A DNA stretch of 64,000 nucleotides from Cyanobacterium stanieri PCC 7202. GTDB taxonomy: Bacteria; Cyanobacteriota; Cyanobacteriia; Cyanobacteriales; Cyanobacteriaceae. Below are positions 31,711 through 32,853 of the stretch, piece after piece. A model generated the notes under the pieces. The model ran no database searches, was not told the origin of the DNA, and worked only from the letters and a program-made list of their open reading frames with translations. The stretch spans positions 2,489,547 to 2,553,546 of the forward strand of contig CP003940.1 of NCBI GenBank assembly GCA_000317655.1, given 5' to 3'. Made by a program: the position numbers and the translations under genes. Every line of letters begins with the position of its first letter. The stretch's first letter is position 1.

Positions 31711-32325
31711 TTATCCTTGTTTTTCTACTTGATTAAATTCGAGTTCTACGGGTGTATCTCTACCAAAGATGGAAAGTAGGGCTTTGAGTTTGTTTTTCTC
31801 GCCACTGACTTCGATTACTTCCCCTGCAAAGTCCTTGAATGGTCCACTGAGTACCAAGATTTGATCCCCAATTTCCATATCGATTTTTACGACAGGTTCA
31901 GCCTCATCCATTTGTTTGAAGATGCGATCAACCTCAGAAGGGGATAGGGGTAAGGGTTTGACATGACCTCTGCCTCTACCTACGGGGCGTTTTTGCTCCG
32001 CACCGACAAAGTTGATAACATTAGGAGTATTTTTGACCATTTGCCAAGCATGATCATCTAAGATCATTTGTACTAAGACATAGCCGGGTAATACCTTTTC
32101 TTCTCCTTGATAGCGACTGCCATCTTTACGGATTTTCACCGTAGGGCTTTGAGGAATACGCACCTCAAGAACTCTATCTGCTAAGTCGAAGCCGTGAATT
32201 CTTTGTTCTATGTCGGTTTTAACTTTTTTTTCGCAACCTGCAGAAACTTGGACTACGTACCAGCGAGGTTTACCCACTGCTACTCCTTTTTTCTGTTCGG
32301 TATCGTTTTCTGAGTATAAACCCAT
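31711..32325 (-). CDS. nusG: Transcription termination/antitermination factor NusG
   Basis: A 204-aa NusG. The NGN domain starts with RWYVVQVSAGCEKKVKTDIE (about 21-40) and the C-terminal KOW domain has the GDQILVLSGPFKDFAGEV motif (about 152-169). It contacts RNA polymerase and couples transcription with translation or Rho. A ~20-residue N-terminal extension is common in cyanobacteria. The ATG overlaps the secE stop codon (TAATG type overlap), so secE and nusG are translationally coupled. Confidence 0.97.
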   Translation of the reverse strand: MGLYSENDTEQKKGVAVGKPRWYVVQVSAGCEKKVKTDIEQRIHGFDLADRVLEVRIPQSPTVKIRKDGSRYQGEEKVLPGYVLVQMILDDHAWQMVKNTPNVINFVGAEQKRPVGRGRGHVKPLPLSPSEVDRIFKQMDEAEPVVKIDMEIGDQILVLSGPFKDFAGEVIEVSGEKNKLKALLSIFGRDTPVELEFNQVEKQG

Positions 32326-32554
32326 TAAAACACCTTCCCAGCTGACCAGCTAAATATGTTATCAACTAAATAGATAATGGTAGCTACCAATGTCACCATC
32401 AAGATTACAGCCACAGATTCACTAATTAGTTGTTGACGGGAGGGCCAGACAACTTTGGCGAGTTCTTCTTTTGTTTCTTGAACAAAGGTTGATTTGTCGC
32501 TTTTGACTGTTTGAGCCTCTTTATTTTTTTGGTAATAGTTTCTTTGTTGGTCAT
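32325..32554 (-). CDS. secE: Preprotein translocase subunit SecE, out of frame by one base at an A7 run
   Basis: SecE is the small essential subunit of the SecYEG channel. From the nusG overlap back, the frame reads EELAKVVWPSRQQLISE then a single TM helix (VAVILMVTLVATIIYLV), the SecE signature, but it has no start codon. The only good start, ATG at 32554 with GGAG upstream, is in another frame (MTNKETITKK). Adding one A to the A7 tract (32524-32530) gives one 76-aa protein of normal length. Position between trnW and nusG is canonical. Since the gene is essential, either the base is missing from the assembly or slippage restores the frame. Confidence 0.85.
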
Positions 32555-32664
32555 GATGACTCCTTATAGTTTTATAGATTGATTACTCGAGCGATAATTT
32601 ATCACCCTTGAATCTTCATTATAAGGTCACTTAAGCACAACATTATTAACCTTTTAGACACCAA

Positions 32665-32737
32665 CACGTCCTAGAGGACTTGAACCCCTGACATTCGGTT
32701 TTGGAGACCGACGTTCTACCAACTGAACTAAGGACGT
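32665..32737 (-). tRNA. trnW: tRNA-Trp (CCA anticodon)
   Basis: The 73-nt cloverleaf folds by eye: acceptor ACGTCCT/AGGACGT, D-arm GTTC/GAAC, anticodon stem TCGGT/ACCGA with loop CTCCAAA (anticodon CCA), T-arm AGGGG/CCTCT with TTCAAGT. The discriminator is G and the 3' CCA is not encoded. The position just upstream of secE is the usual one for trnW in many bacteria. Confidence 0.96.
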
Positions 32738-32853
32738 ATATTTGAATACTATAACTAATTTCAGTTTTATTTGTCAAGTATCAAACTTGCTGAAGTTCAT
32801 TCAGTATGTGTTGGTTTTAGAGGTTAACCATGGTGTTAAGATGACGAATGAAA

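Follow-up and report, generated by a model that had tools for sequence, protein, structure and literature searches.

In the deposited genome of Cyanobacterium stanieri PCC 7202 the gene for SecE, a translocon subunit that is essential in other bacteria, is disrupted by a one-base shift of frame, which most probably stems from a sequencing error. The only secE found there is whole but for a single base and its domain is conserved, yet the start codon and the domain lie in different reading frames, which part at a run of seven A residues. Here, the window denotes the whole stretch of DNA that was analysed, 64,000 nucleotides at positions 2,489,547–2,553,546 of a genome comprising a single contig of 3,163,381 bp. 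The features of the locus, in window coordinates, are as follows.

31711..32325, minus strand: nusG (TIGR00922, 197.7 bits; also in the list of open reading frames)
32325..32525, minus strand: the SecE frame from the A7 run on, 66 codons and a stop, matched by Pfam SecE, TIGR00964 and solved SecE chains
32426..32554, minus strand: open reading frame from the secE ATG in the recorded frame, 42 amino acids, without a family match
32524..32530, minus strand: the A7 run, read from the sequence, at which the ATG frame and the SecE frame split
32552..32554, minus strand: recorded secE start codon ATG, read from the sequence; the same start region, GGAGTCATCATGACCAACAA, is found in Cyanobacterium sp. 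HL-69 and in genome G004
32560..32565, minus strand: Shine–Dalgarno-like AAGGAG, read from the sequence, with a 5-nt spacer to the secE ATG
32664..32738, minus strand: tRNA-Trp gene upstream of secE (tRNA call)

The ATG at 32554–32552 is the only start on the minus strand at secE that possesses a ribosome-binding site, and in a Pfam profile search its 42-residue product matched no family. The SecE domain is encoded one frame back from this ATG, in the codons from 32525 to 32328. From stop to stop this second frame comprises 85 open codons (32582–32328; stop 32327–32325), and its last 66, starting at 32525, match Pfam SecE (PF00584) with 62.1 bits (cut-off 22.7), TIGR00964 with 59.8 bits (cut-off 27.55) and solved SecE chains with a best E value of 9e-07. 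The gene occupies the canonical place before nusG, the ATG of which shares one base with the secE stop codon (TAATG). It resembles bacterial SecE (PF00584, TIGR00964) in its domain, in the length of its downstream frame and in its place between tRNA-Trp and nusG, and differs in that the recorded start codon and the domain are offset by one base; as recorded, no single frame leads from a start codon to the end of the gene. The junction of the frames is at codon AAT 32525, before which either one additional base or a −1 shift is needed, and one added base yields a SecE of 76 codons. An earlier note on this DNA had described a secE with an intact signature and TM helix that is out of frame by one base at the A7 run 32524–32530, has its only ribosome-binding start in the other frame, sits in its canonical seat before nusG and is restored to 76 residues by one added A; each of these statements agrees with our results, coordinates included.

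A usual start codon inside the SecE frame was considered and rejected, since neither ATG, GTG nor TTG occurs as recorded between the upstream stop of this frame and the domain. It is highly improbable that SecE is instead initiated within its frame at an unusual codon, or that the culture was mixed at the run and carried A8 together with A7. The SecE frame contains no stop codon as far back as 32582, which would leave room for such a start, but its codons near the Shine–Dalgarno sequence are ATA AGG AGT CAT CAT GAC CAA, of which ATA alone is conceivable as a rare start codon, and this ATA overlaps the Shine–Dalgarno sequence. Homopolymer runs are well known to mutate easily, as a mixed culture would suppose; however, A7 would have to be in the majority to yield the recorded consensus.

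Rescue of the cell by a second secE elsewhere was rejected on the basis of a search of the whole genome, in which a single SecE match lies above the cut-off. The next four matches at E ≤ 10 have E values of 0.054–7.2 and are all under the cut-off, so that the absence of another secE, which the earlier note had reported for the window, extends to the entire contig. SecY is present in one copy in the genome and is whole, with an open frame of 438 amino acids.

Among 100 genomes, that of PCC 7202 included, SecE was matched in 98. The start of the gene was compared in two sets of relatives that overlap in part, a start being counted where any ATG, GTG or TTG, and nothing more, stands between the upstream stop and the SecE domain. 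The first set, returned from these genomes, has 30 loci, namely that of PCC 7202 and those of 29 relatives, and all 29 of the latter carry an in-frame start codon before the domain. The second set comprised the best 80 of 484 loci, of which 79 have an in-frame start codon; the sole exception, L055, is cut by the end of its own contig. The start region GGAGTCATCATGACCAACAA, shared by PCC 7202 with its congener HL-69 (locus L021) and with G004 (L027), is in frame with SecE in both of the latter. At the place of the A7 run HL-69 has AAGCAAAAAGGC and G004 has AAGCAAAAAAGC, both in frame and neither an A7 run, and conservation of the A7 site in HL-69 or G004 was rejected. The comparison with sister strains, proposed in the earlier note, thus confines the shift to the record of PCC 7202 among the relatives compared.

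Selection on the SecE domain was estimated as dN/dS by the Nei–Gojobori method over 54 codons. PCC 7202 compared with HL-69 gives a ratio of 0.17 and with G004 one of 0.11; with G002, where dS is near saturation, it is 0.04. HL-69 and G004 compared with each other give a dN of 0.024 and a dS of 0.706, a ratio of about 0.03 that is lower than those of the pairs with PCC 7202, and therefore the constraint on secE in the branch of PCC 7202 may be slightly relaxed; the changes concerned, approximately eight, are few and mild.

If the A7 run is real, the only SecE of the cell would be made through slippage of the ribosome or of RNA polymerase on a run of just seven residues, which we consider unlikely. 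For the ribosome, a −1 shift is conceivable in which tRNA-Lys, paired with the second AAA of ACC_AAA_AAA_AUA, moves back by one base while AUA is waiting, after which reading of secE would continue with AAU AAA GAG; we regard this as improbable. The run permits re-pairing of AAA to AAA in the P site, but it departs from the canonical X_XXY_YYZ pattern. AUA has the lowest usage among the isoleucine codons (3,211 of 22,699 in the sample), and a small output of SecE might be enough. A 4-bp stem begins 6 nt beyond the run and the folding of the 99 nt beyond the run exceeds that of shuffled sequences to some degree (z = −1.84, matched by 10 of 200 shuffles), whereas the near structure is weak (z = −0.84 for 69 nt) and the stable helix begins only about 70 nt beyond the run. 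By eye, no internal Shine–Dalgarno sequence was seen directly 5′ of A7. The occurrence of the same sequence elsewhere also speaks against a shift: AAA AAA ATA is found in frame 26 times in 796 long open reading frames of the sample, groEL and pth included. In groEL (TIGR02348, 830.9 bits) and pth (TIGR00447, 204.6 bits) A7TA stands in frame in the same phase as in secE, so that strong or efficient slippage at this A7-TA is unlikely. The A7 site is moreover missing in HL-69 and G004, in which the slippery site of a programmed −1 frameshift would be expected to be kept. In the PMC literature nothing was found on frameshifting or slippage in secE, the matches being off-topic by their titles.

RNA polymerase could instead insert an extra A into some transcripts of a real A7 and so restore the frame, a reading to which we assign a very low likelihood. 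Polymerase slippage is known for long A-runs: passages of the published accounts give about 20–25% slippage at an A11 run in Citrobacter tssM1 (PMC4256274) and slippage in 12–50% of transcripts at long poly(A) tracts of insect endosymbionts (PMC5009743), and bacterial slippage runs are put in a passage of a review at nine A or T, or longer (PMC5009743). The secE of PCC 7202 is like these cases in that the frame is lost at an A-run; however, its A7 is shorter than the runs described, its host is no endosymbiont and the site is missing in HL-69 and G004. The composition of coding sequence in the PCC 7202 sample also speaks against slippage at such a length. Compared with codon shuffles, A7 and A8 are in excess (363 versus 228, or 1.59 times, and 123 versus 90, or 1.37 times) and A9 or longer is scarce (14 versus 55, or 0.25 times), as if the cost of slippage begins only at nine; HL-69 shows the same pattern. 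Across the PCC 7202 and HL-69 samples, coding runs of A5–A8 occur at approximately 1.4–1.6 times the shuffled number, while those of A9 or longer occur at 0.25–0.34 times and those of T9 or longer at 0.04–0.11 times, a sharp drop at nine. In favour of polymerase slippage, eight other genes of PCC 7202 are one A short at A-runs. If the A7 is real, slippage in secE may perhaps reflect a more general tolerance of one-A losses in this genome, because these eight genes, two of them conserved, are broken alike in 40% of it.

The same eight genes bear on the reading in which the base is missing from the record alone. They were identified in a sample of 1.264 Mb consisting of the window and 60 stretches of 20 kb (approximately 40% of the genome) and were judged to be broken at A6–A8 runs, each one A short. 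Positions are given within the numbered stretches.

L122:2013: A7, one A short; the first half matches DUF2357 with 21.6 bits, under the cut-off of 23.3; it has no PADLOC match and is termed defence-like from its neighbour
L122:4866: A7, one A short; the second half matches PADLOC PDC-M26A
L130:6253, in dndC (L130:4922-6498, minus strand): one base short at A7 or at a run beside it, near C6A7GA7; the DndC halves cover profile positions 9–61 and 54–473
L142:8208 (L142:7483-8750, plus strand): A8, one base short; the first half is Csm6-like with 25.5 bits, under the cut-off of 27.5; of 14 relatives two have the gene, both whole, with 428 and 438 amino acids
L146:13235, in a pseudouridine synthase gene (L146:12948-13555, minus strand): A6 or a nearby C5, one base short; the halves match PF00849 at 2–118 with 54.2 bits and at 123–152 with 21.6 bits, the latter under the cut-off of 26.8; open over 192–247 amino acids in the ten strongly matching relatives of 14
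L146:18303, in a TnpB gene (L146:17480-18705, minus strand): A7, one base short
L150:5224, in the gene for a small protein without a Pfam match (L150:5012-5436, plus strand): A7, one base short; open over 139–159 amino acids in ten of ten matching relatives (of 14)
L210:11267, in a type IIG restriction enzyme gene (L210:10298-13050, plus strand): A6, one base short; both halves match PDLC03621, at 347–657 and 840–1012

All eight breaks point in one direction (8/8 one A short, p = 0.008), which fits undercalling. The support that they lend to an undercall is limited, since six of the eight genes are defence-like or mobile, classes that frequently undergo real decay. Like secE, the two conserved genes, L146:13235 and L150:5224, are intact in relatives and broken in PCC 7202. 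The neighbouring PDC-M26A and DUF2357-like genes (L122:808-5527; C1:1120808-1125527, minus strand) are both split at an A7.

These breaks emerged from a scan of runs that gave 26 rows in the 1.264 Mb of PCC 7202 and 17 rows in a 0.8 Mb sample of HL-69, all 43 of which were judged on translations. In PCC 7202, 14 rows resolve into the eight breaks, with several rows per break, and 12 are adjacent genes, gene ends or chance. In HL-69 one A/T-run break is one base short, at a T6 in a HinP1I-like restriction gene (L193:10890; L193:10602-11452, minus strand), the halves of which match profile positions 20–117 and 115–208 and which is whole, with 283 amino acids, in G007. A transporter gene of HL-69 (L194:9863; L194:9240-11442, plus strand), with halves matching PF00324 at 2–218 and 219–439, has one base too many at a G5, two further breaks are in transposase genes (L188:3712 and L171:12406), and the rows besides these are adjacent genes or chance. 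The excess of PCC 7202 over HL-69 in A/T-run breaks that are one short is not significant (8 versus 1, p = 0.08; 7 versus 1 without tnpB, p = 0.12; 8 versus 2 with the A6 transposase counted, p = 0.19). A stricter rule-based scan gave four A-run breaks in PCC 7202 and none in HL-69 (p = 0.14); it additionally returned in PCC 7202 a shift away from any run at L119:15738 and a stop at L129:17520, and none of this kind in HL-69. At L119:15738 (minus strand) the gene end is shifted at a tandem pair of a 13-base unit, AAATTATCAAGAT, which resembles the result of a small duplication. An initial frame-break scan had listed 27 candidates in 464 kb, mostly neighbouring genes, of which nine pairs were translated. 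The secE gene itself escapes the run scan, its upstream arm being about ten codons long. A scan directed at N-termini returned secE and four other rows of PCC 7202 without a start in the second frame, and six rows of HL-69; the one of the four that was inspected, L151:3110, was not kept, and the six HL-69 rows lie in L171 (a transposase gene), L175 and L190, the latter two resembling, by eye, copies of this transposase gene. A deficit of A8 relative to A7 was also tried as a mark of undercalling and was rejected, as the counts of A7 to A8 or longer (363:137 in PCC 7202 and 224:109 in HL-69, p = 0.10) do not differ clearly.

We estimate the probability that the deposited sequence lacks one A, and that the run is A8 in the living strain, at approximately 0.8. 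Several lines of evidence favour this missing A. The gene is whole, conserved, single-copy and presumably needed, and its single lesion belongs to a frequent class of error; no convincing stimulator of frameshifting was recognised; groEL and pth carry the same site in frame; other A-runs of the same record are also one A short; and the A7 site is not conserved, being absent from HL-69 and G004. As in a homopolymer undercall in a finished genome, secE is one base short at A7 with no other lesion in the gene, and the other short A-runs of this record are of the same kind. We infer that the base is missing by an error of the record rather than of the cell. The earlier note had posed a wrong assembly against slippage or frameshifting as alternatives; we favour a wrong record, and slippage of ribosome or polymerase is less likely. 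Searches of the PMC literature found no account of the sequencing method of this genome and no mention of its secE. With A8, the living strain would have an ordinary in-frame secE of 76 codons, read from the ATG at 32554, and the real gene would be seated between tRNA-Trp and nusG.

Either outcome has consequences beyond this locus. We know of no described case of an essential translocon subunit that relies on recoding at so short a run, and if the A7 is real PCC 7202 would provide one, with its SecE dependent on recoding at a very short run. If, as is more probable, the base is missing, an uncorrected error would stand in an essential gene of the record, and perhaps in a few other genes as well; secE of this strain would be annotated as a pseudogene, with misleading results for surveys of gene loss or of recoding.
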